The position numbers were made by a program, and so were the translations under genes. 64,000 nt of DNA from Helicobacteraceae bacterium (lineage in GTDB: Bacteria > Campylobacterota > Campylobacteria > Campylobacterales > Sulfurimonadaceae): contig JALWGC010000002.1 in the NCBI GenBank assembly GCA_027038835.1, positions 1 through 64,000 of the forward strand, written 5' to 3'. Numbering within the stretch: the first letter of the stretch is position 1; each line of letters starts with the position of its first letter. The notes under the pieces were generated by a model. The model saw nothing but the letters and a program-made list of their open reading frames with translations. It was not told the origin of the DNA and did no database searches. Positions 3,148 to 19,848 of this stretch are shown in pieces.

Positions 3148-3387
3148 ATGCAGATATCAATCGACATTCAAGACGATATCTATCAACGACTGCAAAAAGC
3201 GGGCATCGATATACAATCACGCTTCAATGAATATCTTGCGAGCCTTACTTATAAAAACTCCAAGCAGTATGAAGAAGACAAAGCCTATTTTCAACAGGCG
3301 TTGGATGAGGCAGAAAGCGGTAAAGCAAAGCTGCTTGATGAAGAGCAGTACGAAAAAGAGATGAAAGCGTTTGAAAGCTCTTTGTAA
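3148..3387 (+). CDS. antitoxin of a type II toxin-antitoxin pair
   Basis: Small acidic protein of 79 residues with an N-terminal strand (MQISIDIQDD) suited to a ribbon-helix-helix fold, followed by helices rich in E, K and Q, as in RelB/ParD-type antitoxins. It would bind its own promoter and neutralise the toxin encoded next. The start has a GAGG box eight bases upstream. Its stop overlaps the toxin start by one base (TAATG), a typical coupled arrangement. The exact antitoxin family is not certain. Confidence 0.75.
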   Translation: MQISIDIQDDIYQRLQKAGIDIQSRFNEYLASLTYKNSKQYEEDKAYFQQALDEAESGKAKLLDEEQYEKEMKAFESSL

Positions 3388-3671
3388 TGAAGATCGTAAG
3401 AAGCTCAAAGTATATTGCTACGCTTCAAGAGATAATGCGCTTTATCTCACTCGATAGTAAAAAGCGGGCTTTGGCATTTAGAAACCAGATCGATAAGCAG
3501 ATAGCAAGTCTTACCGATATGCCCTATAAGTGTAGAAAGTCGATCTACTTCGATGACGAGCAGATAAGAGACTTGATTTATAAGGGTTATACGATAGTTT
3601 ACAAAGTGGATGAGGATAAAAACCTCATCGTTATTGTCGCCATCAAAAAGCATCAAAACGACTTAGGGTAG
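3387..3671 (+). CDS. RelE/ParE-superfamily toxin
   Basis: This protein of 94 residues has the RelE/ParE layout: two N-terminal helices, then strands with KCRKSIYF, IRDLIYKGYTIVYKV and a final strand ending in KKHQND. RelE members cleave mRNA on the ribosome and ParE members poison gyrase; the sequence seen here does not separate the two. The IRDLIYKGYTIVY segment is typical of the superfamily. It is coupled to the upstream antitoxin, and its stop lies six bases before the second copy of the tRNA-Ser repeat, so the pair fills the interval between repeats. Confidence 0.8.
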   Translation: MKIVRSSKYIATLQEIMRFISLDSKKRALAFRNQIDKQIASLTDMPYKCRKSIYFDDEQIRDLIYKGYTIVYKVDEDKNLIVIVAIKKHQNDLG

Positions 3672-3676
3672 GTAGT

Positions 3677-3807
3677 AATCCCTGAGCCTCCACCACCTAA
3701 AAATCGTTCACTTTACACAACCAACTTTCATCTAACTATCGAACATGACAACTTCAGTACCATTTTTGACACATCAAAAAAGTTGTAGTAGTAACCTGAC
3801 CCCAATT
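3677..3807 (+). repeat. direct repeat, copy 2 (partial tRNA-Ser 3' end)
   Basis: Second copy of the repeat at 2828-2953. It begins at AATCCCTGAGCC, carries the last 19 bases of tRNA-Ser including CCA without the rest of the tRNA, and ends with GTAACCTGACCCCAATTA. It lies six bases after the toxin stop codon. It looks like the far attachment site of an integrated unit or the footprint of a duplication. Confidence 0.88.
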
Positions 3808-4334: not shown

Positions 4335-5261
4335 ATGAGCAACAAAAACTACGACAAAACCCTCTCGCGTCTTATTGGCATCCTTACCAAACTCTCCGAC
4401 GGTGAGATGCCGACAACCAAAGAGCTTGCCGAAGAATTTGGCGTGAATGTACGCACGATCCAAAAGGACATCAAAGAGCGTCTTTACTACTACCCCATCA
4501 TAAAAACAAGCGATCACCGCTATACTTTCGCTTACGGTTTCTCGCTCAAACAGACCGATCTCACAAACGACGAGATGGTCTTCTTGCACTTAGCGCTCAG
4601 CCAGTTCGAGGATGTGGACGACATCGACAAGATCAAAGACAACATCTACAAAAAGATCATTCACAAAAAGTTCTACAGCCCCTACTACATCAAACAAGAG
4701 GATCTTGAAGACCTCGATGTGGACTCCCCGCTTGTCTCCCAACTCGAAGCGCTTATAGAGAACAAGGAGAGAGCCAAGATCGACTTCACAAACGAGTCCA
4801 AAGAGCTTGAACTCTACAAGATAGCGGCGTTTGACGGTTTTTGGTACCTCTTTGCCAAAGACATGGAAGCAAACAAGATCAAAACTTTCCGCTTAAGCGA
4901 TATAAAAAAGGTCCACCCCCTTGGCATCTACCACAAAACATCGAGTGATTTTATAGAGCGCTTACTCCAAAACGTGCACTCCGCCTTCTTTGAAGAGGGC
5001 AACACTTTTAAGGTGGTCGTAAAGGTTTACCCAGAGATAGCCCACTACTTCAAAAAGCGCGACTTTTTGGACTCGCAAGAGATCCAAGAGGAGCTTGGGG
5101 ATGGTTCGCTGGTGGTTTCTTTCACCGTTTCGCATGATGAAGATATAGACAACATCATCAAATCATGGCTGCCGCACATAGAGATACTCAAACCGCAAAG
5201 ATTTCGCGACAAACTCCACAATGAACTCAAAGAGTATCTCAAAAAGGTCGAAACGAACTGA
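4335..5261 (+). CDS. WYL-domain transcriptional regulator
   Basis: DNA-binding regulator of 308 residues. The N-terminal helix-turn-helix is at about residues 8-50 (KELAEEFGVNVRTIQKDI). The WYL domain follows, with the signature WYL at residues 170-172 inside FDGFWYLFAKD, then a C-terminal WCX-like domain. WYL proteins bind ligands, possibly nucleic acids or nucleotides, and are often encoded beside CRISPR and other defence loci. This gene ends 43 bases before the first small gene of the CRISPR operon and points the same way, so it is the likely local regulator, acting either as repressor or activator. No operator could be picked out by eye. Confidence 0.88.
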   Translation: MSNKNYDKTLSRLIGILTKLSDGEMPTTKELAEEFGVNVRTIQKDIKERLYYYPIIKTSDHRYTFAYGFSLKQTDLTNDEMVFLHLALSQFEDVDDIDKIKDNIYKKIIHKKFYSPYYIKQEDLEDLDVDSPLVSQLEALIENKERAKIDFTNESKELELYKIAAFDGFWYLFAKDMEANKIKTFRLSDIKKVHPLGIYHKTSSDFIERLLQNVHSAFFEEGNTFKVVVKVYPEIAHYFKKRDFLDSQEIQEELGDGSLVVSFTVSHDEDIDNIIKSWLPHIEILKPQRFRDKLHNELKEYLKKVETN

Positions 5262-5304
5262 CGTCTTCGCCGAGAAAGAGTAAACTACCGTCAAAGGAGC
5301 GAAA

Positions 5305-5412
5305 ATGTACACACTCAACTGCATAGACTGCGGCTACACATGGCAAAGCGAAAGTGCCGACTGGTGCGAATGCCCGATGTGCGCTTCAAAAGATATCGTG
5401 GTGGTGGCATAA
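5305..5412 (+). CDS. 35-residue zinc-ribbon-like microprotein
   Basis: An open frame of 35 codons with a good ribosome-binding site (AAAGGAG, eight bases before the ATG). The translation has two CxxC pairs, CIDC at residues 6-9 and CPMC at 23-26, plus C21, and reads like a rubredoxin or zinc-ribbon knuckle with W13 and W20 between. It sits three bases before the csx20 start and in the same orientation, so it belongs to the CRISPR operon. Function is unknown; a small zinc-binding accessory protein is an inference from the cysteine pattern only. Confidence 0.6.
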   Translation: MYTLNCIDCGYTWQSESADWCECPMCASKDIVVVA

Positions 5413-5415
5413 GTT

Positions 5416-5802
5416 ATGAAAAAGATGATACTCTTTTTTTCACATCACTTGACTGAGGCACAAATAGAGGATGCACAAAAAAACTACGCCATAGAGGAGT
5501 TTGTCTCTTTGCCAAAAGAGCTGCAGCCTCTTTGGAGTCAGATAGATCCAGATATCCCGACATTAAAAGAGGGGCTCAAGCCTTTGTTCGATTTTTTGAA
5601 GACAGAGGCGAAAAAAGGGGACTATGCCCTTATACAGGGGGATTTTGGAGCGGTGTATCTGATGGTGAACTATGCCAAAGAGTTAGGTGTCATTCCCGTG
5701 TATGCGACGACGAAAAGAGAGGCGGTCGAGTATATCGACGAAAACGGCAAGCTGGTAAAAAAGTCGGTATTTGAACATAGGAGGTTTAGAGAGTATGAGT
5801 GA
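5416..5802 (+). CDS. csx20: Csx20-family CRISPR-associated protein
   Basis: The 128 residues match my recollection of the Csx20 family: MILFFSHHLTEAQIEDA at the N-terminus, FVSLPKELQPLWSQI, and the conserved GDYALIQGDFGAVYLMV followed by GVIPVYATTKRE. Csx20 has been proposed from comparative genomics to be a ring nuclease, that is, an enzyme that degrades cyclic oligoadenylate and switches off type III CRISPR signalling. That role is known for other families and is inferred here. Its stop overlaps the start of the membrane-protein gene, so a possible degrader and a possible sensor of the same messenger would be translated together. Confidence 0.75.
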   Translation: MKKMILFFSHHLTEAQIEDAQKNYAIEEFVSLPKELQPLWSQIDPDIPTLKEGLKPLFDFLKTEAKKGDYALIQGDFGAVYLMVNYAKELGVIPVYATTKREAVEYIDENGKLVKKSVFEHRRFREYE

Positions 5803-6424
5803 GTTTTTGAAGGCTTGGTGGCCAATTATTATCTACTTTATATTGGTGATTTTTGGATTTGGAGTAATGTTCTTTGAAAATGAAACTAATACAGTTTATA
5901 AGATTTTAACTGCTTTAGATACTGCATCAGCAATTGCTCTTGCAGTTTTGGCTGGAATCGCCTATTATCAATACTCCAAAGAAAAAAGTAAGCATCAAAA
6001 ATATTTAAAAGATATAGAAAAATCAAAAAACACGATTGGGAATGACGGTGCTGTTTTAATAAGCTTTGGAGGTAAAAAAAATGTCTTAAACGATATGAAA
6101 AATTTTGTAAAAAATAATTTAAAAATAGAAGAAGATCTAATTATAGAAAAAAGGTTTGGAGATGAAAATGGAATTGTAAAAGAAGAAGATTTAGCAAGAT
6201 TAGAAGATTTTTTAGAAAATGAAGTAATGAATAGATTGACCTATGTAGATAATATACATCTTCTTTATGGGGTTGTAGGCATTGGTGCATATGTTTGCGC
6301 TGATGTATTAAGTAATTGGAAAAATATTTATGTATATCATTACAATAATAACTATGAATTATGGTACACAGACAGAAAACATAGAAAGAAAATAGATGCT
6401 GACCTACACCAAACAAACCTATAA
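5795..6424 (+). CDS. two-TM protein with a C-terminal CARF/SAVED-like domain, candidate CRISPR effector
   Basis: The start chosen is the ATG at 5795, ten bases after AGGAGG; an upstream in-frame TTG at 5771 is less likely. The protein is 209 residues. Two hydrophobic helices lie at about 8-27 and 36-59, then a charged linker and a soluble domain from about 80. That domain begins with a strand (GAVLISFGG) and ends with GVVGIGAYVCADVLSNWKN plus a strand YVYHY, a pattern that recalls nucleotide-sensing CARF/SAVED folds. Size and topology resemble the membrane effector Csx23 and TM-CARF proteins. No nuclease motif is visible. The gene is more A/T-rich than cas genes around it. It lies between csx20 and cas6, so a messenger-gated membrane effector is a reasonable inference. 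Confidence 0.6.
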   Translation: MSEFLKAWWPIIIYFILVIFGFGVMFFENETNTVYKILTALDTASAIALAVLAGIAYYQYSKEKSKHQKYLKDIEKSKNTIGNDGAVLISFGGKKNVLNDMKNFVKNNLKIEEDLIIEKRFGDENGIVKEEDLARLEDFLENEVMNRLTYVDNIHLLYGVVGIGAYVCADVLSNWKNIYVYHYNNNYELWYTDRKHRKKIDADLHQTNL

Positions 6425-7145
6425 CATAAAAGCGAAAAAACCCTACCTCTTTATAGGCTCCAAGATCCGCGGTGCCTTTGGCTATGCGCTCAAAGAGGAG
6501 GTTTGCATCAACCCTTCCTTTGAGTGCAAAGGGTGTTTTGCCGCTAAAGAGTGCCTCTTTTACAAACTATACGAGATGCAAAATACGACACACCCCTATA
6601 GGCTTGATTTTAAACTCCATTCCAAAAAGTACAAATTTTCTCTTTTGCTCTTTGGTGAGTTGCAAAAACACAAAGAGACGATGTACAAAGCGATGATAAA
6701 TGCACTCAGAAACTACAAAGAGGTGACATTCAAAGAGAAGCGCAAAAAACTCAAGATCAAAAACACCCCTTTAGTTGTCAAGATAGAGTTTCTCACTCCG
6801 CTGCGTATCAAAAAGAACAACCGCTTCGCGGTGGATGATATAGATTTGCTTGACATTCTGCTCTCCATCCACCGAAGAAGCGCGGCACTTCAGGGCAAAA
6901 AGCTTGAAAAACTGCATATAGACAAAAGCTATAAAACGGTCTCAAAGCATCTTTACTTCCAAGACCTGACACGACGCAGCAACAAACAAAATACAAAGAT
7001 GAACTTAGGAGGACTTATGGGGGAGATGGTTGTAAGCGACATAGACAAGAAGATATACGAACTTCTAAAAACAGGCGAGATCATAGGGGTAGGCAAAAGC
7101 ACCGTTTTTGGTCTTGGCAAAATCAAAATCGAGGAGATAGCATAG
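6396..7145 (+). CDS. cas6: Cas6-family CRISPR RNA endonuclease
   Basis: Cas6 cuts the CRISPR precursor RNA within each repeat. The 249-residue protein has the layout of the Cas6 C-terminal-domain family: an N-terminal RGAFGYALKE segment, a cysteine cluster CKGCFAAKEC followed by LFYKLYE, and the glycine-rich end GVGKSTVFGLGKI near residues 232-244. It overlaps the upstream membrane-protein gene by 29 bases and stops just before cas10. A small CCC/GGG stem in the array repeat, followed by ATTAAAAC, is a plausible substrate. The catalytic histidine was not assigned. Confidence 0.8.
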   Translation: MLTYTKQTYNIKAKKPYLFIGSKIRGAFGYALKEEVCINPSFECKGCFAAKECLFYKLYEMQNTTHPYRLDFKLHSKKYKFSLLLFGELQKHKETMYKAMINALRNYKEVTFKEKRKKLKIKNTPLVVKIEFLTPLRIKKNNRFAVDDIDLLDILLSIHRRSAALQGKKLEKLHIDKSYKTVSKHLYFQDLTRRSNKQNTKMNLGGLMGEMVVSDIDKKIYELLKTGEIIGVGKSTVFGLGKIKIEEIA

Positions 7146-8597
7146 ATGGCGAAGTATCTGTATGGCGCAAGTGTGCAGGGGATTCAAGAGTTTATATTTA
7201 AAACCAATAAACTCAAAGAGATTGTGGGTGCGAGTGAAATAGTAAAAGCGATCGCATCCAAAGCAGATGAAGGCGAAGAAAAAGACCCGATAAGTTTTGA
7301 GGACAATTTCAAAGCCGATGAGGTGCTGCTCAATGCAGCAGGCAATATCAAAGCGATCTTCAACAGCAAAGAGGAGTGTCAAAAAGCGGTTTTGGAGTTT
7401 CCAAAAAGGGTGATGCAGCACGCATACGGTATCACTATCTCACAAGCTGTGGTGAAGATAGAAGAGGAGTTCACTTATAAAGATATAGAAACACTGGAAA
7501 AAAGGCTGAAGATTCAAAGAAACAGACCAAGCTTGCCACTTGATAGCAGTATCGGTATCATCAAGCTATCACCTTCGACGGCAAGAGCGAGTGTGAAGTA
7601 TATAAAAGAGGATGAGGGTAAAGTCGCCATAGACAAATCCACGGCACAAAAACATAAAGCGTATAACAAATTTTTACAAGCCAATCCAAAGATTAAAAAA
7701 CTCAAAGATATTTCCAGCTTTTCCAACGCCAAGAACAAGATAGCGGTTATCCATGCCGACGGTAACGGTTTGGGGCAGATCGTTCCCAAACTCGGCAACA
7801 AACTCAGCAGCTTTTCAAAAAAACTCGATAAAGCGACAAAAGCGGCATTTGAAGCGGCAAAAGATGAAAATATGAACATACGCAATGTAATCCTCGGCGG
7901 TGACGATATGACCGTTATCTGCAATGCCAACGACGCGCTGGAGTTTACAAAAAGGTTTTTAAAGAGTTTCGAGAAAGAGACAGCCAAGATCGAAGAGCTT
8001 CAAGCCATAGGTGTAGAAAAACTTACCGCTTGTGCGGGTATAGCCTATTGTAACGAAAAGTACCCGTTTCATTATGCGATCGATTTGGCTGAAACACTCT
8101 GTAGTGTAACGAAAAAACATGCAAAAAATCTCGATGCGAAAAAAGCCCCCTCAGCGTTGATGTTTCACAACATCCAAAGCTCCAACTTCCAATCGTGGGA
8201 AAAATTTCTCAAAAATGAGCTAACAATCAAAAACGATAAAGAGGAGATTCGGCTCGATTTTGGACCTTACTATCTGTCGCAGCCAAACCAGCCCCATATA
8301 GACAAACTGCAAAACTCCATCGAAGCCTACAGATGCGAGGGTTCACCGATCAGCCGCTTGAGAAACTGGCTTAGTGAGCTTGCAAAAAGCCAAAAGTATG
8401 CGCAGAGTCTGCTTGAGCGGATTAACGAAGTAACAGAGCAAAGCGGCAAATGGAGATGTGAAATCATGCAAAAAAATCTACAAAACCTCTATGCCGACCT
8501 TTCAAACGAAAAGTTGATCGTTCCCAAAGACGGATACAACAAAACTCCCATATATGACATTTTACAGATACTCTCAGTAACGGAGGCGAAACGATGA
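7146..8597 (+). CDS. cas10: Cas10, HD-less, cyclase-competent
   Basis: Large subunit of the type III effector complex. At 483 residues it is short because the N-terminal HD nuclease domain is absent; the protein starts directly with YGASVQGIQEFIF and NKLKEIVGASEIV, typical of the first palm-like region. A strand IAVIHADGNGLGQI and the intact GGDD motif at residues 251-254 mark the palm domain that makes cyclic oligoadenylate from ATP when target RNA is bound. A helical D4-like end follows. Without HD, DNA cleavage by this subunit is not expected and signalling should be its main output. The stop overlaps the next RAMP gene (ATGA). Confidence 0.92.
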   Translation: MAKYLYGASVQGIQEFIFKTNKLKEIVGASEIVKAIASKADEGEEKDPISFEDNFKADEVLLNAAGNIKAIFNSKEECQKAVLEFPKRVMQHAYGITISQAVVKIEEEFTYKDIETLEKRLKIQRNRPSLPLDSSIGIIKLSPSTARASVKYIKEDEGKVAIDKSTAQKHKAYNKFLQANPKIKKLKDISSFSNAKNKIAVIHADGNGLGQIVPKLGNKLSSFSKKLDKATKAAFEAAKDENMNIRNVILGGDDMTVICNANDALEFTKRFLKSFEKETAKIEELQAIGVEKLTACAGIAYCNEKYPFHYAIDLAETLCSVTKKHAKNLDAKKAPSALMFHNIQSSNFQSWEKFLKNELTIKNDKEEIRLDFGPYYLSQPNQPHIDKLQNSIEAYRCEGSPISRLRNWLSELAKSQKYAQSLLERINEVTEQSGKWRCEIMQKNLQNLYADLSNEKLIVPKDGYNKTPIYDILQILSVTEAKR

Positions 8598-9088
8598 TCG
8601 CATATACGGTAAGATTTTTGGACTATTGGCACTTAAGCAGCGGTCTTAGCGGTGGTGCAAGACTTGACAGTATGGTAGTAAAAGATCAAGATGATCTCCC
8701 CTATATACCCGGCAAAACCATAAAAGGGCTGGTACGGGAGATCTTGGAAAGAGAGGGTGAAGATGTAGAGTTTTTGCATGAGTGCTACTTTGCCAATGCG
8801 ACGATAGAAGATGTTACGAAAAAGGAGATCGTTACAAACAGACTCCAAGACAATCTCTACGATATCATCGCTTCGACCCGGATCGAACAAAGCGGCATAG
8901 CAAAAGACAACAGCCTAAGAGAGATAGAGGTCGTCATCCCCATAGAGCTTGAGGGGGAGGTTCGCCACGTGCCAGAACAGAAAAAAGAGCGACTAAAAAA
9001 AGCGCTGCAAAAGATCAAAAGGATGGGTCTGAATCGAAACAGAGGTCTTGGCAGATGCAGATTTGAAACAAAGGGAGAGAGAGCATGA
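8594..9088 (+). CDS. Cas7-family RAMP subunit (Csm3-like, small)
   Basis: A backbone subunit of 164 residues. The Csm3-type signature LPYIPGKTIKGLVRE is present, preceded by LDSMVVKD, in which D25 aligns with the aspartate that cleaves target RNA in Csm3. The C-terminus has the glycine-rich NRNRGLGRCRF motif of RAMP proteins. It overlaps cas10 and csx10 by four bases each, so the genes are translationally coupled. Confidence 0.85.
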   Translation: MIAYTVRFLDYWHLSSGLSGGARLDSMVVKDQDDLPYIPGKTIKGLVREILEREGEDVEFLHECYFANATIEDVTKKEIVTNRLQDNLYDIIASTRIEQSGIAKDNSLREIEVVIPIELEGEVRHVPEQKKERLKKALQKIKRMGLNRNRGLGRCRFETKGERA

Positions 9089-10437
9089 GAGAGTTGGTGT
9101 ATGAAGTGGAATTTTTAAGCGATATTGTCCTACCTGCCTCTTCCAATACCCAAGGGAAGATAACACAACTTGACTTTATACCCGGCAGTGCATTTTTGGG
9201 TATAGCAGCACAAAAGTACGGTGAGTTTCAAAACAGTTTCGAGATCTTCCATAGTGGAAGGGTGAAGTTTGGGGATGCAACCATCCTCAAAGATGGTAAA
9301 CTAACCTACAAAATGCCTCTCTCCTTTTTTCATGAAAAGCTTGACGATACCACCATCTACAACCACCACAAGATAGAGGATTTCTCCCGTTTCGATCAGC
9401 TCAAACAGCTACGCAGCGGGTATATCACCGATGATTTGGAAGCGGTAAACATCGAGTACGACTATACGCAAAAATCGGCTTACGACAAAGAGAACAGACG
9501 AAGCAAAAAGGGGCAGATGTATGGATACAACGCCATAAAAAGCGGAACAAAATGGCAGTTTCGCATCATCTATGACGACTTTGTTTCACAAGAGGACATA
9601 GAGCTTCTAAAGGAAACGATAGAAGGGGAGAAAAGGCTTGGAAAGTCGAAGTCAGCACAGTATGGACGCGTAAAAATAACTTTTCTTAAAGAGCAAAAAA
9701 GAGCTGAAAAAGAAAAAGAGGGAGAGTTGGTGCTTTATGCCAACAGCCGACTGGCTCTTATGGACGAGAAGGGGCATCCCACTTACGATCCACAATACCT
9801 CTTTGAAGGATTGAGTTATGAGAATGTCGATTATGCAAAAACACAGATACGCACTTTCAACTATACTCCATACAATGCAACAAGAGCGACGCAAGACTAT
9901 GAGAGAGTCTGCATCGACAAGGGTTCCGTCATCGTCTTGAAAGGTGTCGATGCAACGAAGATACCAAACTTTGTCGGAGCATACCAAAGCGAAGGATTTG
10001 GGGAAATAGTACTCAATCCAAAATTTTTGCAACACTTCAGCTTTAGTTTCAAACCTTCAAAAGACAAAAAAGATGAAACAGCAACGATAATGCCAAACAG
10101 TCCTCTAAGTCTTTTTTTGCAAGAGAGGGAGAGGGAGAAACAAGATCGGCTTGATCTGGGAGAAACGGTCTCTGAGTTTATAAAAGACAACTTCGATCTT
10201 TATAAAAATATCAAACCATCACAATGGGGCACCATAAGGGGGATCTGTATCAAGGGTGATGAAAATTTCAAAAAACAGATCGAAGACTACATAAGCAGCG
10301 GTAAAGCGAAATGGGAAAAAAGACAGATAGAGACTCTTCTTGGTCATAGCGAGAGATTGGAGTTTTTCAAACTTCTTGCTATGCAGATGCCAAAAGCCCT
10401 AAAGATAAAAGAGCAAAAGGAGCGAAAAAATGGCTAA
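9085..10437 (+). CDS. csx10: Csx10-like RAMP (Cas5 of type III-D)
   Basis: The 450-residue protein resembles Csx10: an N-terminal LDFIPGSAFLGIAA, the RLGKSKSAQYGRVKI loop near residues 178-192, and a second RAMP-like half with GAYQSEGFGEIVLNP. Csx10 holds the 5' tag of the crRNA at the foot of type III-D complexes. Its presence with an HD-less Cas10 and fused Cas7 units is the main reason for calling the locus III-D-like. It overlaps the next RAMP gene by eight bases. Confidence 0.8.
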   Translation: MRELVYEVEFLSDIVLPASSNTQGKITQLDFIPGSAFLGIAAQKYGEFQNSFEIFHSGRVKFGDATILKDGKLTYKMPLSFFHEKLDDTTIYNHHKIEDFSRFDQLKQLRSGYITDDLEAVNIEYDYTQKSAYDKENRRSKKGQMYGYNAIKSGTKWQFRIIYDDFVSQEDIELLKETIEGEKRLGKSKSAQYGRVKITFLKEQKRAEKEKEGELVLYANSRLALMDEKGHPTYDPQYLFEGLSYENVDYAKTQIRTFNYTPYNATRATQDYERVCIDKGSVIVLKGVDATKIPNFVGAYQSEGFGEIVLNPKFLQHFSFSFKPSKDKKDETATIMPNSPLSLFLQEREREKQDRLDLGETVSEFIKDNFDLYKNIKPSQWGTIRGICIKGDENFKKQIEDYISSGKAKWEKRQIETLLGHSERLEFFKLLAMQMPKALKIKEQKERKNG

Positions 10438-11707
10438 CTATACCGCGCACATAACCATAGAGGCAAAGACTCCGCTAAAAGTCGGCAGCAACAACAGCGA
10501 CTTTTTGCAAGATGCTCCCGTTCAAAAGGACTGGAACGCTCTGCCGATGATCCTTGGCACATCGATTGCCGGAGTCTTAAGAGAGCTCTACGATGGAGAT
10601 AAAGATAAGCTTTTTGGCTTCCAAAAAGAGAAAGAAGATGAAGGAGCTGGCTCGAAAATTATTTTCTCCAATGCGTTGCTCCTTGATAGCAAAGCAAAAG
10701 TGCATGAAGAACTGCTACTAAAAGAGAAGAGAGAAGATCCTATCTTGCAGATCTTCTCTTCACTCCCTATACGAGAGCATGTCAAGATCAACGACAAAGG
10801 GGTGGTAGATGGTTCTGCGAAGTTTGACGAAGAGGTTGTCTACAAGGGAACACGCTTCAAGTTCGCCATCGAGTTGATAGAAGAGGACAAAGCGAGTTTT
10901 AATGCGATTTTGGATCTGCTGCATAGAGCATCTTTTAGACTTGGCGGAGGCACTACGAAGGGGTTTGGAGCGTTTGAGATAGTGGAGATAAAGACAACCA
11001 CAAAAGAGTGCTCAAGCAGTCTTAACGATGCGTTTGCAGATGAAGGACTCTACAAGCCAAACGATGCACACAGTGAGTATATCCATTATAAACTTTCGAT
11101 AAAACCGGATGACTTTTTCATGTTTGGCAGCGGTTTTGGGGATGAGGATGCCGATATGACGCCGGTGTATGAAAAAGTGGTCGATTATACGACCGCTTCT
11201 CTTAGCGATGAAAAGGTGCTCATCCCCGCTTCCTCTATCAAAGGCGCACTCTCACACCGCACGGCGTTTTATTACAACAAAATGATGCTGCAAGAACAAA
11301 AAGAGTATACAAAAGTCGGCGAAGAAAACGATGCGGTCGTTGCCATCTTTGGACATAAAAAAGAGAAAAAAGAGAACAAAGAGCTTGGACAAAAAGGGAA
11401 AGTTCTTTTTAGTGATGTTTTCAAACCAAAAAAAAGAACGAAAGTTTTCGATCATGTCGCCATCGACCGTTTCACCGGCGGAGCGATTGATGGAGCACTT
11501 TTTCAGGAAAAAACCATAGCCGACGATGGAGACTCCTACGAGTTGGAGATACTGCTTCATAAAAGTTTAGAGGGAAGCAAAGCACAAAAAGCCTTTGAAG
11601 CTGCCTTAAAAGACATCACGACCGGTATGCTCCCCCTCGGGGGTGCTACGACCAAAGGGCATGGGGTATTTAGCGGTTCTATAACGAAAGATGGAGAAAA
11701 GTTATGA
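10430..11707 (+). CDS. fused double Cas7 (Csm3-like) RAMP protein
   Basis: Two RAMP modules are joined in 425 residues. The first has LQDAPVQKD, in which D28 aligns with the RNA-cleaving aspartate, followed by LPMILGTSIAGVLREL and a GGGTTKGFGAFEI glycine loop. The second has VLIPASSIKGALSHRTAFYY, HVAIDRFTGGAIDGALF and GGATTKGHGVF. Fused Cas7 units are typical of III-D and related variants and would give several cleavage sites along the target RNA. It is coupled to both neighbours by overlapping start and stop codons. Confidence 0.85.
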   Translation: MANYTAHITIEAKTPLKVGSNNSDFLQDAPVQKDWNALPMILGTSIAGVLRELYDGDKDKLFGFQKEKEDEGAGSKIIFSNALLLDSKAKVHEELLLKEKREDPILQIFSSLPIREHVKINDKGVVDGSAKFDEEVVYKGTRFKFAIELIEEDKASFNAILDLLHRASFRLGGGTTKGFGAFEIVEIKTTTKECSSSLNDAFADEGLYKPNDAHSEYIHYKLSIKPDDFFMFGSGFGDEDADMTPVYEKVVDYTTASLSDEKVLIPASSIKGALSHRTAFYYNKMMLQEQKEYTKVGEENDAVVAIFGHKKEKKENKELGQKGKVLFSDVFKPKKRTKVFDHVAIDRFTGGAIDGALFQEKTIADDGDSYELEILLHKSLEGSKAQKAFEAALKDITTGMLPLGGATTKGHGVFSGSITKDGEKL

Positions 11708-12138
11708 AAAAAATGGCATCAAAAAAAGAGATCATCGACTATATCAACGAAAACTTGCAAAACTACCAAGGGTATGTGCAGTTTTCGCATCGTAAGATCG
11801 AGAAGAAAAAAGATATTTTTCCAGATGGTGATGTGCATGTTGAAGATGAAGCGGGGTTTATCTACGAAGCACATTTTTACAACATGGACAAAAAAGAATC
11901 GATCCAGATACGCCAGATCAACGATAGCTGGATAGTTTCTACAACGACACTCGATGAAAAGGAGTTCGACATCACCGAGGAGGAGTTCATCACCGATATC
12001 CAAGAGTTTCCATACAAGGTCAAAATGGCACAACTCTGGAAAGCCGAGCCGGATGAACTGTGTGAGGGGATGATGGTGAAAAAACTTAAAAAAGTGGTTT
12101 TTGCAGGATTTGTAAAAGGAGGAAAAAATTATGCCTGA
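11704..12138 (+). CDS. TIGR04423-like type III CRISPR-associated protein
   Basis: A 144-residue protein beginning with a lysine-rich helix, then NYQGYVQFSHRKI, GFIYEAHFYNMD and SIQIRQINDSW, the pattern I associate with the TIGR04423 type III family. Function of that family is not established. It could fill the small-subunit (Cas11-like) position, as no separate Cas11 is seen, but its predicted strands do not favour that. It overlaps both neighbouring RAMP genes. Confidence 0.6.
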   Translation: MKKMASKKEIIDYINENLQNYQGYVQFSHRKIEKKKDIFPDGDVHVEDEAGFIYEAHFYNMDKKESIQIRQINDSWIVSTTTLDEKEFDITEEEFITDIQEFPYKVKMAQLWKAEPDELCEGMMVKKLKKVVFAGFVKGGKNYA

Positions 12139-13510
12139 AAATAGCGTTAGCAATTTTATAAAAGCGTCCGAAAAAGTTTTTTTATTAAATAATGAGGATG
12201 TAAAAATATCTCATGATATACCTTTTGATAAATCATATAGTGGAAAAATCGCCATAACTATTGAAGCTATTGAACCAATATTTATTCGCAATCACTACGA
12301 AGAAGGTGATAAATTCTATGAGATTACAAAAAAAGAGAATGGGATCGAAAAAAAGATTCGAGTATCTAAAGAGTTTTGTCATTATAAGAAGCAACCATTT
12401 ATTCCGGGGAGTTCTTTAAAAGGGATAATTCGCAACCTTGTTGAAATATTATCTTATGGAAAACTTCAAGGAAAAATGTCTTTATCAACTTTGGAAAACA
12501 GATATACAGATCCATCACATAAACATAGAAGCGAAAAACTTGATTTATCAGATGCTTTATTCGGGACTACAGACTTAAAAGGAAGAGTTGTTTTTTCACA
12601 TTTAAAAGTAAAAGGTTCTTTTGAATATGATGATGAAAAATGTGAAATTTTAGCAACACCTGAAGAAAAAAAAGGAAAAATTGGTTGGAAAAACTATCCA
12701 ATCTTGGATGAACAAATTAAAGGAAAAAGTGGAAATAACGAAAAAGTTAAAAGTTATTTTATCCCACTGAAGAGTGGAGTTCGATTCTATGGAAACATTC
12801 TGTATCACAACCTTAGAGATTTTGAGTTAGGTGCACTGCTATCTGCTTTGACTTTCCATAATACATCAGATGTATATCACAACTTAGGTTTGGCTAAATC
12901 ATTAGGATATGGTGCGATTGAGATTAAAATCGAAACAGAGCATTTAAATGAGATGTTGGGAGCATTTGAAAAAAAAATAAATGCTGAAATATTTGATGGA
13001 AAGCATTTGTGGCATAAAAGTCCTTATGTCAAAGAACTATTAAAAAAGCATTCAAAAAAAACAGATAAAGAATTTTTATCTTATACTAGTGAAGATGATA
13101 TTGCAACTATTTACTTGAAGATAAAAAATATTCAAGAAAAAGAAAAAGAGGAAGAGAAACGACGAAAAAAGTTAAAAAAAATGGAACAAGAGTGTCAAAA
13201 AGCGAAAGAAAGTGATGATTTAAGTTTTTTACAACATCTTGTCGATACTTATCCGGAATGTGAAGATATCGAAGATATCAAAAACAAAATTGAAAACATA
13301 AAACAGTCAAAACAAAAGGACAAACATAAAGAATTGAACGAAAAAGCCAAAAGAGCATGGGATGAGCTTCAGAAGAAAAAATCAAATCAAAAGCTGTATA
13401 AAAAAGAGTTAGATAAATTTATAACAAAATGGGGAAAAGAAAAAAACAACAAGAATTCTCAGTATATCAAAGATCTTGTCGAAAAAGCTAATAGCTTGAA
13501 AAGATCTTAA
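12131..13510 (+). CDS. TIGR03986-like RAMP with C-terminal coiled coil
   Basis: The first 290 or so residues are a RAMP domain of the TIGR03986 type: KKQPFIPGSSLKGIIRNLVE, LDLSDALFGT, KGRVVFSHLKV, and NLGLAKSLGYGAIEIKI. The last 140 residues are almost wholly charged helix (EKEKEEEKRRKKLKKMEQE and similar), an extension I would not expect for a plain Cas7. The gene is clearly more A/T-rich than the preceding cas genes, with less GC at third positions, which hints at separate acquisition. It is the last gene before the array and about 930 bases without a gene follow. Confidence 0.78.
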   Translation: MPENSVSNFIKASEKVFLLNNEDVKISHDIPFDKSYSGKIAITIEAIEPIFIRNHYEEGDKFYEITKKENGIEKKIRVSKEFCHYKKQPFIPGSSLKGIIRNLVEILSYGKLQGKMSLSTLENRYTDPSHKHRSEKLDLSDALFGTTDLKGRVVFSHLKVKGSFEYDDEKCEILATPEEKKGKIGWKNYPILDEQIKGKSGNNEKVKSYFIPLKSGVRFYGNILYHNLRDFELGALLSALTFHNTSDVYHNLGLAKSLGYGAIEIKIETEHLNEMLGAFEKKINAEIFDGKHLWHKSPYVKELLKKHSKKTDKEFLSYTSEDDIATIYLKIKNIQEKEKEEEKRRKKLKKMEQECQKAKESDDLSFLQHLVDTYPECEDIEDIKNKIENIKQSKQKDKHKELNEKAKRAWDELQKKKSNQKLYKKELDKFITKWGKEKNNKNSQYIKDLVEKANSLKRS

Positions 13511-13778
13511 GTATCGTTTTTGCATTATTATAATCTAAAAACGATAAAATCAAATATCATAAGCGTTTTGAGAGTTAGCGATCCCTAATTTCCTTAAACT
13601 CGGATTTTGGCAAAAAAAGAGGGATTTTATAACGATTTTTCAAATTTATGCTATAAATATAACAGTTTTTCTATTTGTATAACTGTTTTTCAAAGGAGTT
13701 TCGATCTTGAAACAACTACCGGTTTGGATGAGGTGTCGTTCGAGATAGCGAACAAGCCCGAGCTGTTCGAGGAGATGA

Positions 13779-14367
13779 ATTGCGAACTTTTTTGAGCCTA
13801 TTTTGCGCATTTTCGGTAAAATATGAGTCGAAAAAGTTGGCAAAACAGCTAAGTGCCAACTTCGCTGCAAAAGGTTTGCGAACTTTTAGTTTCATTTAAG
13901 CTGCAAAGTCCCTAAAATAGGGAGTCTCTAAGCTGAAAAGAAACTGAAAGTTAGAGATTGTCGGTTTTGCGAAAAAAATGCAAAACGATTTGCGAACTTT
14001 TTAATAACTGACCTTACGCACCATATCATACACTGAGTGGTTTTTGCGATATGTGAGTGCAAGGCACACCGACGAAGCATAGCCGTAGCTACGCTGAGGA
14101 GGTGTAATGCAGTCAATCGCGTGTCGCAAAAGTCACCCAAAGGGCGAAAGGATAGGCATCATACTGACTTCGTTGGAAAATTTCCACCGTAGCTTTGGCT
14201 ACGCTGAAAACTTTCCGCCTTGCATTATAACGCCTCTCCTTTCGCTCAGTGTGTGATATGGTGCGTAAGGTCAGTTAAGACCTCGTAAAACAGGCGTTTT
14301 TTGACTTTTCATTGTCAAAGTTACAGAGTTGCATTTTGTAAAATGGGGTAGATTTGCGAACTTTTTT
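13779..14367 (+). repeat. four direct copies of a TTTGCGAACTTTT motif
   Basis: Copies start at 13779, 13875, 13988 and 14352, all on the plus strand, with nearly identical cores (ATTGCGAACTTTT or TTTGCGAACTTTT) followed by T or A runs. Spacing is 96, 113 and 364 bases; removing the 273-base element at 14005-14277 makes the last interval 91. A hairpin precedes the copy in each interval. The arrangement resembles iterons or repeated operator sites. I did not see the motif elsewhere in the window by eye. Confidence 0.75.
14005..14277. mobile_element. MITE-like element, 273 bp
   Basis: Perfectly bounded by inverted repeats of 33 bases with one mismatch: left arm 14005-14037 starting TAACTGACCTTACGCACC, right arm 14245-14277. 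The outer TA on each side is compatible with a TA target duplication, as made by IS630/Tc1-type transposases. Inside are GTAGCTACGCTGAGG and GTAGCTTTGGCTACGCTG segments but no open frame large enough for a transposase. It sits within the gap between the third and fourth TTTGCGAACTTTT motifs, so it inserted into a pre-existing repeat array. Confidence 0.8.
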
Positions 14368-14406
14368 AGCTAAAGTCGTAGTTTAGGAGCATTTATAGTT
14401 TTATGA

Positions 14407-14412
14407 TATAAT
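14407..14412 (+). promoter_or_regulatory. putative -10 box of the CRISPR array
   Basis: TATAAT lies 31 bases before the first repeat, predicting a start near 14419. The -35 region 17 bases upstream is poor, as is common in this phylum. It would transcribe the array on the plus strand, agreeing with the degenerate repeat at the far end. Confidence 0.5.
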
Positions 14413-14443
14413 TACAAAATGTAGAAAGTAAGGGAAATAGGCT

Positions 14444-14779
14444 ATCTACAATACACGACCCGATTAAAGGGGATTAAAACGAGTACCTATATATCGTAGT
14501 ATAGACCAGCTTGAGATCTACAATACACGACCCGATTAAAGGGGATTAAAACGCGGACACGATGCTTGGCGAGCTTGACGCGAAGCAGGCGGATCTACAA
14601 TACACGACCCGATTAAAGGGGATTAAAACTTCATCATTACGATCCTGATAGCGTTCCGCCATGTCGTTGATCTACAATACACGACCCGATTAAAGGGGAT
14701 TAAAACAAAATAAGATGGATCAAAAGCAAAAAAATATGATCTATCTACAATACACGACCCGATTTAAGGAATAAAAACC
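14444..14779 (+). CRISPR. CRISPR array, five repeats and four spacers
   Basis: Repeats of 37 bases start at 14444, 14516, 14593, 14670 and 14743; they begin ATCTACAATACACGACCC and end GGGGATTAAAAC. The first four are identical; the last differs in its final third (GATTTAAGGAATAAAAACC), as expected of a trailer-end repeat. Spacers are 14481-14515 (35), 14553-14592 (40), 14630-14669 (40) and 14707-14742 (36). A CCC/GGG mini-stem precedes the last eight bases ATTAAAAC, which would form the 5' tag after Cas6 cleavage. Orientation is plus strand. No cas1 or cas2 is in the window. Confidence 0.97.
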
Positions 14780-14947
14780 GTTAAGAAAAAGCTTTCCTCT
14801 TGGCTTTTTTAGGTTTTTCCCAAGAGTGATGTGCGTAAGCACCACTCGCGGAGGAGACGGCAGGGATATTTCTTTAAAGGCGATCTACAACATCACTTTT
14901 TTTCGACCCAGATTTCAAAACGAACCGACGTGTTCGCTCACTCCTTT

Positions 14948-14953
14948 TATAAT
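14948..14953 (+). promoter_or_regulatory. putative -10 box of the beta-barrel gene
   Basis: TATAAT at 14948-14953, 32 bases before the ATG at 14985, with AAAGGAG at 14971-14977 as the ribosome-binding site. No strong -35 is seen. Confidence 0.55.
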
Positions 14954-14984
14954 GCCGCTATCAAAACAAAAAAGGAGTCGAAAA

Positions 14985-15494
14985 ATGACAAAAACAACAA
15001 AAATTATGGGTATCTTGGCGCTTTCAAGCGCTTTGGCGAGTTCAGCTATGGCGAAAGATATGGGTGGGTTCTTGCAAGTAGGGTACGGTTCTGCAAAAAT
15101 AGCTTCGGAATCCACCGGTGCGGTCGTCGTCGATTTTGGAGCGAAATTCGGTCAAACATACAAACAGTCCATTGGTTTTCGCGTCGTTTTTTCAGGTGAA
15201 AACGACGATTGGAACGATGGTACGGGCAATGTAGGGGAGATGTACTACACACTCGGATACGAAGTGTTCCAAGACACGACACTCGCAGCAAAAGTAGGAT
15301 ACGCTTTTGAAGATATAGGACAATTGAAAGATTCGACTGCATATGCAACCGGTATAACCTACGGAGCGGTAGCGAAATACGCCCTTAGCGATTCGTTCGA
15401 CATTGTCGCTACATACACGCGTGGAGATTTGAAATTCGAATCGATCGATCATACTTACGAAGTTGCCGATGTCGGCATTTCGTACACATTTTAA
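14985..15494 (+). CDS. small outer-membrane beta-barrel protein
   Basis: The start is the ATG at 14985 behind AAAGGAG; the longer frame from 14826 runs through non-coding DNA. The 169-residue product has a cleavable signal peptide ending near SSAMAKD, then alternating strands (GGFLQVGYGSAKIA, VGEMYYTLGYEVF, TLAAKVGYAFEDI, FDIVATYTRGDLKF) and a terminal aromatic residue in VADVGISYTF. This is the signature of an eight-strand-type barrel of the porin/OmpA-like class. The substrate is unknown. Its stop codon lies at the edge of the hairpin element at 15496. Confidence 0.8.
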   Translation: MTKTTKIMGILALSSALASSAMAKDMGGFLQVGYGSAKIASESTGAVVVDFGAKFGQTYKQSIGFRVVFSGENDDWNDGTGNVGEMYYTLGYEVFQDTTLAAKVGYAFEDIGQLKDSTAYATGITYGAVAKYALSDSFDIVATYTRGDLKFESIDHTYEVADVGISYTF

Positions 15495-15723: not shown

Positions 15724-16410
15724 GTGCAAAATCCGACACCGCAGTGGAAGCTTCCCTCCCAAGAGGAGGTCGAAGCGCTCGCTTCACGCGCCAAAAATTC
15801 TCCCAAAAAAGATTTTTTGGTACGAAACGACCTCGAGACGCTCAAAAGCGTCGCCCAAACACTCGTCAACCAAAACAACCAAGCCGCAGAAAGAGCGCTC
15901 CAAAACGGCAACGACGACGACGCTCACCTCATCGACCATGCCGCCAACGAACAAAATATCGTCGATACCTACAACTTTCTACTACTGCGCTACGAAGGGA
16001 TACTCGAAGAAACACTTGCGAAAAAAGACTACAAACTCGCACTCTATTTCGACAACTATTTCGTCGATTTCGAGAGCAACTTGGAAGAGGCGAAGTCCCA
16101 AAAAGAGCTTCGTGTTTCACATCATCCATACTTTATCAAGATGTACAGAACGACACAAGACAAACTCGCCACACTGTACAAAATCTACCTCGACAATACG
16201 GAACGACTCAAAAAAAGATACCTCAAAGACCAAAAAGTACTCATCGAAATACGTGAGGAGAAAAAACGTTACAAAGTCGCCTACGAATCGGTTTTAGACG
16301 AATTCACAACCTACGCTACGACTTTTTTCGAAGCACTCCAAGCCGATGAAAAAGAGCGAAAGACACTGTATGACAAAATCGAGACACTACAAGAGAGGTT
16401 TGGCATATGA
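15724..16410 (+). CDS. unrecognised helical protein, first gene of a four-gene operon
   Basis: This protein of 228 residues begins with GTG behind a weak AGGA. It has no signal peptide or membrane segment. It is strongly helical and charged, with long coiled-coil-prone runs in its second half. I do not recognise a domain. Its stop overlaps the next gene's start (ATGA), so it is translated with the membrane protein that follows and probably forms a cytoplasmic partner of it. Confidence 0.7.
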   Translation: MQNPTPQWKLPSQEEVEALASRAKNSPKKDFLVRNDLETLKSVAQTLVNQNNQAAERALQNGNDDDAHLIDHAANEQNIVDTYNFLLLRYEGILEETLAKKDYKLALYFDNYFVDFESNLEEAKSQKELRVSHHPYFIKMYRTTQDKLATLYKIYLDNTERLKKRYLKDQKVLIEIREEKKRYKVAYESVLDEFTTYATTFFEALQADEKERKTLYDKIETLQERFGI

Positions 16411-18020
16411 TATTTGCGATCAAAAATTTTTTCTACATCTTCTTTCTGCGCTTGGGAGTGTTTTTCAACTCTCTTGGTGATGGTTTTCGCCACCTTCTCT
16501 ACAAAAGAGCAGAGCGTATAGACGGTAAAACGTTCAAAAAAGAGACCAACGCCATCTTGAACGAGTTCGACCAAGAGTACCGCTACAAAGAGGTCAACGA
16601 CATCGTTCCAACCGAAAACGAGTTTACAACAAACATCCTCTATACCCTCGAACGGCTCTACGAAACCGCGATAAACGCGACCAATCGCGTGTACAAGAAG
16701 ATTCAGTTTCTCGAAGCCAACTACAGCTCGCTCAAGTCGGAACTCGACAACAAGCTCTACTACGAACTGCACAACCTCGAAGAGAAAAAAGAGCGTATAG
16801 AAACGGAGATAGAAGAAACGGACCAAGAGATAGAACGCTACAAAGACAAAAAAGAAAAACTCGAATCGGAATTTGGCAAGCTCGACGACAAAGAGGTTGT
16901 CGGAGACCTGCACAGACACCCCAAATGGTTTTTCTGGATCGTCATGATACCTGCGGGAATGGCGGAGTTTTTCATATACAAAAGCGTTTTTATGTCTCAA
17001 GAGCTCAACCTTCCAATAGATATGCCTGAAAACACCCGTTTCATGTACGAAGTGATGTCTGGGGTGATGTCGGTTGGGTTTATCGTCATGATTATATGGA
17101 TGGCGCACGCGCTTGGCAAGTTCATCCGTTACTTCTCCACCGCGACCAAAAAAGAACGCCCGTTCTATATAGCCAAAATGCTGCTTATCACCCTCGTTTC
17201 CGCAGGAGCTATCTGGGCGACGGTCGATATCCGCGGCGAGATGCACGAAATCATGGCTATCAACACCAAAGTAGCGAATCTCAAATCACTCCAAGATAAA
17301 AACGAAGAAGCCATACTGCTTGGAGAGGACGACACACAAGAAACAAGCTCGCTCGATGACGAGGAGGAAGAGGACGACGAAGGTCTGGGTGATGAAGAAG
17401 AGCTCGAAGAAGATACACTTCAAGAGGAATCGGCAACGACGACAAAAAACGCGCAAAACGGCACGATAGATGCACAAATAGCCGACCTCGAGCACCAAGC
17501 CGTCATCGCAAAAGACGCAACTGCCCCTGTTTTTATGCTTATCAATATCTTCATTTTTCTTGGGGGTGTTTTTCTCTCCTATTTCGTACACACCTCGAGT
17601 CCGACATACGACATGATAGAAGAAGAGTTAAAAAAACTCCAAAAAAAGAAAAAGAAACTTCAAAAAGAGCTCCTTAAAGCCGACAAAGAGATAATGATAT
17701 TTAAAAAACATGTTATCGACCCGCTGTTTCAAAGGGTGCTCAAAGAAGCGTCTCTGTACGATCTGCATGTACGCATCTACAACGCCTACTTGGAACTTTT
17801 TTACATGCAAGTCGAAATAATCGTCGATTACCTTACAAGCACGTTCGAGCGCTTCGGCGTAAGCGTCGAACCCGTTGATTACAAAGCCCTCCTAAGCGAA
17901 CATATAACTATCGACGACAGAAAAGAACTCCACCATGTAAACCGCATCGAGGAGTACATGATATACAAATACTCACCGCCTAAAAAAGTGAAAAATCTAC
18001 ACGAGGAGAAAAAAGCATGA
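16407..18020 (+). CDS. membrane protein with coiled coils and an acidic loop
   Basis: Not recognised. Four hydrophobic segments lie at about residues 173-195, 215-238, 256-272 and 373-395. Long coiled coils flank them at about 95-160 and 400-435. Between TM3 and TM4 is a highly acidic stretch at about 307-341 (DDEEEEDDEGLGDEEELEE). The layout suggests a structural or mechanosensing membrane protein with cytoplasmic coiled-coil arms and an acidic domain that could bind cations. It overlaps both neighbours by four bases, so all four genes form one unit. Confidence 0.75.
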   Translation: MIFAIKNFFYIFFLRLGVFFNSLGDGFRHLLYKRAERIDGKTFKKETNAILNEFDQEYRYKEVNDIVPTENEFTTNILYTLERLYETAINATNRVYKKIQFLEANYSSLKSELDNKLYYELHNLEEKKERIETEIEETDQEIERYKDKKEKLESEFGKLDDKEVVGDLHRHPKWFFWIVMIPAGMAEFFIYKSVFMSQELNLPIDMPENTRFMYEVMSGVMSVGFIVMIIWMAHALGKFIRYFSTATKKERPFYIAKMLLITLVSAGAIWATVDIRGEMHEIMAINTKVANLKSLQDKNEEAILLGEDDTQETSSLDDEEEEDDEGLGDEEELEEDTLQEESATTTKNAQNGTIDAQIADLEHQAVIAKDATAPVFMLINIFIFLGGVFLSYFVHTSSPTYDMIEEELKKLQKKKKKLQKELLKADKEIMIFKKHVIDPLFQRVLKEASLYDLHVRIYNAYLELFYMQVEIIVDYLTSTFERFGVSVEPVDYKALLSEHITIDDRKELHHVNRIEEYMIYKYSPPKKVKNLHEEKKA

Positions 18021-19237
18021 AAAAACTGATATCGATCTGGGTAGCGCTCTTTACACTAACGTTGCAAGCTGATGTTTCCATCTTCGTCGATCTCTCCAAA
18101 GGGATGAGCAACGACGAGTTCAAAGAGTTGATTAAGCTCACCTTCCCAAAAAAACATAGCCAAGACACCATCTACAAAAAAGGGGAGAAAGTCCATCTGT
18201 ACGCCTTCAAAGGGACACATTCACTCAAGAAAGATTTCACGTACTACCCAAGTGATGTCGATGAAAAGCGCTACAAAAAAGCGAAAAAACAGTATATGCG
18301 ATTTTTTTCCAAAGTCAAAAAAAGTAAAAAACCACCCAAAAAAAAGCGTATAAGCGCAAACGTCGTCTTTGTCGTCGATACTTCCGGCAGCATGGTCAAC
18401 AAACACCACAACTACCTAAGTGCGGTCAAAAAAGCGATGAAAGAGCTCGTACGTAACAAGTCAAAAAAAGCCAAAGTGAGCATAGTCACGTTCGATGGCA
18501 AAAAAAAGATGCGCAAAGAACGACGAAGCAAAATCATCGTCGAAAACGAAACCGACAAAAAAAAGCTCTTTGCAGCCATAGACTCCATACAAGTTTCCCG
18601 CTACGACACCTTTTTGGGCAGTGGACTGCAAAAAGCATCGAATCTGCTACCGAGAAAGAGCAAACGCAAAAACGTCGTCATGATTTTCACCGACGGGGCG
18701 GAAGTCAACGACTACGACACCGCATTGCAAGAGGTGGAGTCGCTGAAAAAAAACGGTGTGAGCGTCAAGGTGGTCGCTGTCGGTGGAGCGGATGTGGAAA
18801 TGCTCAAAAACTTCTCCAGCTCCAAGTACGTCTTCAACGCGACAAAAGCGGACCTCCAAACCATCATCAAAGATGTTTCGCTCAACACCGACGAAATCGT
18901 TTTACGACTGGATGACTTCCTTTCTATGTCGCCGCTTAAAAACGGTGATCGTTTCGTTCTCTACTCCACTATGGAAAACGTGGACAACATCAGCGACTTT
19001 TCGCTCGTTCCAAACGTAAGCTCCAAAATCTTCTACGACGAGTTCGAAAAACAAAACGAAGAACGCGATATCGTCGTAGATTTCAACGGTGCGAGAGTTT
19101 TCGTGCGTGTTACGGGAGACGCATCGCCTGCGGAGATAAAAAGACTCAAAACGTTTTGGACGCGCTACTTCAAAGCACATAACGCGAAGTTACGCTACTT
19201 CAGCGCAAGCGAACTCCAAAAAAGTGAAGTCAGATAA
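18017..19237 (+). CDS. exported VWA-domain protein
   Basis: A signal peptide (KLISIWVALFTLTLQA) is followed by about 95 lysine-rich residues. A von Willebrand factor A domain then starts at VVFVVDTSGSMVN, with the metal-site motif complete: DTSGS, the threonine in RYDTFLGSGL, and the aspartate in IFTDGAEVNDYD. About 120 residues of unassigned domain follow. VWA proteins bind partners through a divalent metal and often assist assembly of large complexes. Here the domain would face the periplasm, next to the membrane protein encoded upstream. Its final base is shared with the start of the next gene. Confidence 0.85.
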   Translation: MKKLISIWVALFTLTLQADVSIFVDLSKGMSNDEFKELIKLTFPKKHSQDTIYKKGEKVHLYAFKGTHSLKKDFTYYPSDVDEKRYKKAKKQYMRFFSKVKKSKKPPKKKRISANVVFVVDTSGSMVNKHHNYLSAVKKAMKELVRNKSKKAKVSIVTFDGKKKMRKERRSKIIVENETDKKKLFAAIDSIQVSRYDTFLGSGLQKASNLLPRKSKRKNVVMIFTDGAEVNDYDTALQEVESLKKNGVSVKVVAVGGADVEMLKNFSSSKYVFNATKADLQTIIKDVSLNTDEIVLRLDDFLSMSPLKNGDRFVLYSTMENVDNISDFSLVPNVSSKIFYDEFEKQNEERDIVVDFNGARVFVRVTGDASPAEIKRLKTFWTRYFKAHNAKLRYFSASELQKSEVR

Positions 19238-19848
19238 TGTCGCAGTTCTCACGCAAATACTACAACCTCGACTATAAACGAAACGTCAAGAAAGAGGAAC
19301 TTCCAGACACGACGGTGTGGGAGTTTTGGCGGGTATGGGGTATTTTCGAACATGCCGTTATAGCCTTGCTTTTAATGATACTTTTTTGCCTATGCACGCT
19401 CCACCAATCGCAACCGAGAACCCTCACTCGTACCGTTGTAGAAAAAGTTATCCAACAGCCGCAAAATCCAAAACCCAAAGAAGAACCGTCAAAACCAAAG
19501 CATAAACCACTATCGCTTGGCGATGAGTATCCAAAAAAGATTCTCCCGGCATCGGTGCTCCCTCCCCACACAGAAAACTCGAAACAGCTCTACGGTCCGC
19601 TTAGTATCGAAAACTATCTCTATTTCGTCGATGCGACCGAAAGCCATTTTCCGGACTTTATAGACAGCTCCAGCAGGCGGATAGTAAAATCGAAAGCGCC
19701 GAAATGTTCCCAACCGCAATGTCCTCTGCAATCGGGCGTAACGAAAGAGGATATGGAAGCTTATGTCCAATGGGTACAAGAGCAGAGTCAAAAAAAACTC
19801 CAACTTCTCAAAAAAGACGGAATGTACTATCTCCAACAGGAGAAGTAG
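19237..19848 (+). CDS. single-TM protein with Pro/Lys-rich periplasmic stalk
   Basis: Not recognised. About 35 N-terminal residues are followed by one hydrophobic helix (EHAVIALLLMILFCLCTL, about 38-55). A proline- and lysine-rich stalk comes next (QQPQNPKPKEEPSKPKHK), then a small domain with a CSQPQC pair and a glutamine-rich helical end. The layout is like TonB/TolA-type or linker proteins that reach into the periplasm. It is the last gene of the operon, and the convergent GGDEF/EAL gene ends four bases later. Confidence 0.7.
   Translation: MSQFSRKYYNLDYKRNVKKEELPDTTVWEFWRVWGIFEHAVIALLLMILFCLCTLHQSQPRTLTRTVVEKVIQQPQNPKPKEEPSKPKHKPLSLGDEYPKKILPASVLPPHTENSKQLYGPLSIENYLYFVDATESHFPDFIDSSSRRIVKSKAPKCSQPQCPLQSGVTKEDMEAYVQWVQEQSQKKLQLLKKDGMYYLQQEK

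Follow-up and report, generated by a model that had tools for sequence, protein, structure and literature searches.

Zorya, BatA/BatB-type operons and stalk proteins of the TonB/TolA type are the described systems to which the four-gene operon analysed here can be compared. Zorya requires peptidoglycan binding by ZorB and an aspartate in the transmembrane (TM) segment of that protein (PMC11890865). The operon (15724-19848, + strand) lies in a stretch of 64,000 nucleotides from a Helicobacteraceae bacterium, hereafter the window. It resembles Zorya (ZorA/ZorB) in having an inner-membrane protein whose cytoplasmic helical part is long and, among the relatives of the gene module described below, an OmpA-type partner, and some distant module relatives stand beside ZorA/B-like genes. 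It differs in that none of the four genes matches ZorA or ZorB (no PADLOC Zor match), in that a VWA subunit is present instead, and in that the product of gene 4 carries neither a TM aspartate nor an OmpA domain. With the BatA/BatB type the operon shares a VWA domain outside the cytoplasm and an envelope setting, but gene 3 reached 21 bits against a BatA cut-off of 380, and there is no MoxR ATPase among the four genes. Gene 4, with its single N-terminal TM and Pro/Lys-rich stalk, recalls TonB and TolA, yet matches no domain of either, and no ExbB/TolQ partner was recognised.

The four genes share start and stop bases, the overlaps between consecutive genes being 4, 4 and 1 bases (ATGA, ATGA and TAATG). 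Gene 1 (15724..16410, +), which starts with GTG, encodes a soluble, helical, charged protein of 228 amino acids (aa); gene 2 (16407..18020, +) an inner-membrane protein of 537 aa; gene 3 (18017..19237, +) an exported VWA protein of 406 aa, with a signal peptide recognised by eye; and gene 4 (19237..19848, +) a single-TM protein of 203 aa. GC content at codon position 2 is low in all four ORFs (0.26-0.33), which is the pattern of real genes, and chance is ruled out as the origin of four successive overlapping ORFs of 203-537 aa. The VWA domain of gene 3 is the only recognised domain in the operon; genes 1, 2 and 4 gave sub-threshold or coiled-coil-type matches only in NCBIfam, PADLOC and PHROGs, and no OmpA domain was found in any of the four. 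An earlier note, made from the sequence and its ORFs, had described four genes with shared start and stop bases next to a CRISPR locus, with products reaching from the cytoplasm to the periplasm. The overlaps and the neighbouring locus (type III-D cas genes and array upstream) are as it described them, and the span holds as the predicted layout of the products.

Four TM segments are clear in gene 2 (residues 178-196, 212-243, 255-273 and 375-399), which additionally has an N-terminal hydrophobic stretch (2-20), at whose position many of its relatives carry a fifth TM. The loop between the last two TMs, predicted to be periplasmic, comprises about 101 aa with 32 D/E versus 6 K/R, and in its core (residues 306-342; 17322..17432, +) 22 of 37 residues are D/E. 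The four TMs and the 35-residue acidic loop of the earlier note could thus be recovered, the stretch 2-20 having gone uncounted there. Comparable acidic TM3-TM4 loops occur in the Campylobacterota loci L079, L102, L103 and L105 (D+E 17-22, K+R 5-6).

Against the TM family of the module, gene 2 scored 96.2% (E 2.1e-9) in hhalign. Its TM core scored 64 against an earlier alignment of the family, the values for 40 local shuffles being at most 27.5, and blastp aligned 182 aa of this core with the 282-aa membrane protein of genome G013 (locus L014; E 5e-7). As judged from these alignments, the homology of gene 2 to the TM family is remote: gene 2 was absent from the matches of the family HMM at E 10, and single-sequence searches with it recovered no true relative in 60 related genomes, 397 genomes of the class, viral contigs, plasmids, phages or a genome collection of 85,000 species. 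Two weak matches (L002/L003) were rejected as acidic porins, and L017/L018 as located in a respiratory-complex gene. The residues that are nearly invariant in the family have counterparts in gene 2: (i) E187 in TM1 (16938..16994, +) corresponds to the invariant glutamate (E126 in L079, 100%), (ii) H234 and G237 in TM2 (17040..17135, +; AHALGK) correspond to H167 (87%) and the G170 that follows it (98%), and (iii) R276, just after TM3 (17169..17234, +, including R276), is paired on motif and topology with the invariant arginine at the end of TM3 (R258 in L079, 100%).

Gene 3 contains a canonical VWA domain (18353..18877, +; Pfam PF00092, E 2.7e-20, residues 115-284) in which the MIDAS is complete (D121, S123, S125, T198 and D226), whereas the VWA-like (VWAL) family of the module retains only parts of such a site, namely invariant Asp residues. 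The exported VWA protein with a full metal site that had been proposed earlier therefore stands on its signal peptide, its Pfam domain and its MIDAS residues. Among PDB entries the best matches were extracellular VWA proteins, with a MIDAS VWA protein at E 2.4e-7. The match to the VWAL family lies in the C-terminal part (DFNGARVFV ... FWTRYFKAHNAKL; 18878..19222, +), of which residues 288-400 matched the family by hhalign at 96.9% (E 1.5e-10, and E 1.1e-8 in another comparison); the VWAL HMM retrieved gene 3 with E 7.4e-12 among 2,451 ORFs and with E 9.4e-11 within its own genome. When the canonical VWA was omitted, the score was not above that of shuffled controls, and the predicted secondary structure, while suggestive of a VWAL domain interrupted by a VWA insertion, is without statistical support on this point; the VWA may have been inserted into the N-terminal half of the VWAL fold or may have taken its place. 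The AlphaFold models were weak (pLDDT 57.9 and 64.1) and were used for helix content only; Foldseek with the low-confidence model of gene 3 returned VWA proteins only.

Searching 60 related genomes with gene 3, we found that residues 241-397, a range extending past the VWA domain, match a 373-aa exported protein of G013, whose gene follows that of the 282-aa membrane protein and precedes genes for another exported protein and for an OmpA lipoprotein. With the G013 proteins as tblastn queries, both genes were again found adjacent, usually with an OmpA gene alongside, on plasmids of Rhizobiaceae, Novosphingobium, Paracoccus, Microvirga and Paraburkholderia, and the Paraburkholderia copy in turn led to copies in Pantoea, Aeromonas, Acidiphilium and Aliarcobacter. 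Scanning a genome collection with the C-terminal motif of gene 3 gave 39 loci, and a profile search of Campylobacteria gave 13 strong further loci. Some weak HMM matches in the family search were not accepted, and, as the homology of the Paracoccus and Microvirga TM proteins to the TM family was unsupported (9%, E 0.0035), only their VWAL proteins were counted. By sequence comparison these loci hold a conserved module composed of an OmpA-type protein, an inner-membrane protein with cytoplasmic arms and a VWA-like exported protein (OmpA-TM-VWAL), which is found in Alpha-, Beta- and Gammaproteobacteria and in Campylobacterota. Within Campylobacteria its distribution is patchy (15 of 397 genomes in 11 of 68 genera, the count including the window and one weak case).

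Gene order in the module is conserved: in all 55 loci that have both, the membrane gene is followed directly by the VWA-like gene, and in 46 of the 47 loci containing an OmpA gene this gene stands immediately upstream of the TM gene, the OmpA domains sitting in these partner genes. Pairwise distances of the three proteins are correlated (0.85-0.91, with 0 of 500 permutations as high), a correlation for which co-inheritance alone suffices. Where annotations are present, the loci are labelled as hypothetical, OmpA family or zinc ribbon proteins only; the membrane and VWA-like proteins, where tested, matched no model of Pfam, NCBIfam, PHROGs or PADLOC, and the open-access literature yielded no relevant paper on such an operon. 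No DNA match to a Pantoea copy was detectable in E. coli genomes. The module is compact, ordered and present in many culturable Gram-negative bacteria, while having no name in the searched libraries; it is new relative to these libraries and to open-access papers, the VWA and OmpA folds themselves being already known. Its membrane protein with near-invariant buried residues, together with an exported and an OmpA-domain partner, provides a clear target for further work.

The window shares with representative loci of this module (Aliarcobacter cibarius pACIB, L038; Pantoea, L039/L042; a Sulfurovum MAG, L079; the Helicobacteraceae MAG GLR69, L059) a membrane gene followed by an exported VWA-type gene, here on the same strand with a 4-base overlap, as well as the Glu, His/Gly and Arg residues, the TM3-TM4 loop and the FWxxYFxxxNAxL C-terminus. 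It differs from them in that its sequence is very diverged, in that it adds genes 1 and 4 and the canonical MIDAS VWA domain, and in that its operon has no OmpA gene, the OmpA matches of its own genome being on other contigs. Because of this missing gene we call the window a divergent, OmpA-less branch rather than a standard member. An OmpA neighbour is likewise missing at the Campylobacterota loci L079, L102-L105 and L111, and these loci, together with the acidic loops of L079, L102, L103 and L105, appear to bridge the distance to the window. On this comparison, genes 2 and 3 very probably represent a divergent branch of the OmpA-TM-VWAL module. The view that the four genes form a set belonging to no known system accordingly holds in part: no named family was found in the searched libraries, but genes 2 and 3 are not isolated, their linkage being that of a conserved module, and only genes 1 and 4 are orphans, without conserved linkage.

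The product of gene 1 has no hydrophobic segment and is, as had been suggested, consistent with a cytoplasmic helical protein; it gave no significant match in Pfam, NCBIfam, PADLOC or PHROGs, and no convincing homologue was found in the 60 related genomes or in the ORFs at the family loci. Gene 4 likewise is without a detected homologue in those genomes and ORFs and without a match to ZorB, TonB, TolA or OmpA models. Its product agrees with the earlier description of a TM protein with a Pro/Lys stalk: one TM (residues 35-53, GIFEHAVIALLLMILFCLC), devoid of aspartate, is followed by the Pro/Lys-rich stretch (19408..19518, +).

Our preferred reading is that genes 2 and 3 belong to the module and act within a trans-envelope complex, with gene 2 as inner-membrane scaffold and gene 3 as its periplasmic, metal-site partner; for module membership and mechanism combined we estimate a probability of roughly 0.6, and the mechanistic part we advance tentatively, at somewhat under even odds. 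In such a complex, the buried Glu, His and Arg of gene 2 and its cytoplasmic coiled coils could transmit a signal or a change in conformation across the membrane, and gene 3 may dock on the periplasmic side of gene 2 through its conserved C-terminal part, perhaps on the acidic loop, its VWA domain holding a metal-dependent ligand site. In most relatives the OmpA-domain protein would tie the complex to peptidoglycan; in the window, gene 4, as a membrane-anchored Pro/Lys stalk protein, may replace this missing anchor, and gene 1 would be a cytoplasmic partner. The envelope machine of the earlier note thus persists as the best reading, with genes 2 and 3 placed in a conserved envelope module, and trans-envelope sensing or tethering is the biochemical role that we would propose. 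The window copy also illustrates the extent to which the module may be rewired.

A bolder formulation, which we regard as unlikely, is that the module defines an undescribed class of trans-envelope machine, in which an inner-membrane protein with buried Glu, His and Arg would couple a metal-dependent VWA sensor in the periplasm to cytoplasmic arms and effectors. A peptidoglycan anchor would be usual in this class, which would be spread patchily over several proteobacterial classes and Campylobacterota; some branches would be coupled to ZorAB-like motors, and the window would be rewired, with a stalk and a cytoplasmic partner of its own.

The four genes might instead form a dedicated anti-phage system: envelope damage on infection would be detected by genes 2 and 3, whereupon gene 1 or the membrane protein would kill or depolarise the cell. 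A defence role, which the earlier note had also raised, is kept alive by the type III-D CRISPR locus adjoining the operon (cas genes 4335-13510, array 14444-14779) and by the Paracoccus and Microvirga VWAL genes, which precede ZorA/ZorB-like genes; the patchy distribution described above would also fit it. However, the genes immediately flanking the module at about 50 loci were diverse (LysR regulators, chemotaxis receptors, metabolic enzymes). When 83 module neighbours were compared with PADLOC, with regard also to a CRISPR type III accessory gene set, no family recurred among the matches listed (the first 25 of 69 families), each of which was seen once and mostly concerned generic helicase or AAA models, and none of genes 1-4 had a convincing PADLOC family match. 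Nor was the module found in 50,697 phage records, or in IMG/VR with the patterns tried. Since the neighbours are ordinary and the module was not found in the phage and viral collections searched, defence is unsupported beyond the CRISPR adjacency, was not borne out as an explanation and seems to us improbable; the same two observations favour a self-contained cellular envelope function.

VWA domains frequently act as protein-binding modules outside the cytoplasm, and the best PDB matches of gene 3 are extracellular, so that the operon could also be thought of as an accessory to surface assembly or secretion, in which the MIDAS VWA would bind an exported substrate whose maturation or placement genes 2 and 4 assist. 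A haemagglutinin/ShlB-type system does lie near the Paraburkholderia copy, but no secretion or adhesin neighbour recurred across the loci, and we consider this role rather improbable. Still less probable, indeed very unlikely, is an ion-driven rotary machine of the Zorya, MotAB, Tol or Ton kind, in which gene 2 would form the stator ring and gene 4 a ZorB- or TonB-like rod. The TonB-like shape of gene 4, the ZorA/B-like genes adjoining distant relatives and the buried charged residues kept in the TM family would agree with it; against it, gene 2 matches none of MotA, ExbB and ZorA and differs from MotA and ExbB in topology, and gene 4 matches none of ZorB, TonB and OmpA and lacks in its TM the aspartate on which ZorB depends (PMC11890865). 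Convergence or domain sharing could also account for the resemblance between the module and genes 2 and 3, the operon then being a separate invention. This is most improbable: the matching portions are indeed restricted (about 115 residues in gene 3, and in gene 2 the TM core), and genes 1 and 4 are without relatives, but two adjacent genes match an adjacent pair in unchanged order, and either match is significant independently of the other.

Several further observations concern individual copies of the module. On the Paracoccus (L025:7265-11569) and Microvirga (L027:7371-12198) plasmids, ZorA-like and ZorB-like genes come after a membrane protein gene and the VWAL gene, and ZorC/D/E seem to be missing from the vicinity; these loci may be a Zorya-related system of different composition, and they hint at a link between the module and Zorya-like motors. 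A thermonuclease family gene is found just downstream of the module on the Rhizobium (L022:13100-13996) and Microvirga (L027:12241-12930) plasmids, and the Novosphingobium copy (L023:12708-15334) adjoins the His-Xaa-Ser radical-SAM maturase genes hxsB/hxsC. In the GLR69 MAG (L059:9407-11526), the OmpA lipoprotein gene is preceded by two VWAL paralogues in a row (373 and 333 aa), and the TM proteins of the Arcobacter-type loci L038 and L106-L109 have C-terminal motifs (CxxC pairs) like those of zinc ribbons.

Elsewhere in the window, the CRISPR locus (4335-14779) comprises Cas10d, III-D Cas5/Cas7, Cas6, a WYL regulator and a SAVED-TM-like gene (5771-6424, E 7e-16), and its short array has five 37-nt repeats, the last of which is degenerate. 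Between the array and the operon, an ORF at 14826-15494, whose true start is probably the internal ATG of MTKTTK, encodes a small protein that has a signal peptide and resembles an outer-membrane beta-barrel. Finally, the 3' end of a tRNA-Ser gene and the sequence following it (2828-2916) are repeated at 3677-3765 with 96% identity, and the small ORFs between the repeats (3148-3387 and 3387-3671) look by eye like a toxin-antitoxin pair, so that the region 2758-3765 resembles a tiny element at a tRNA.
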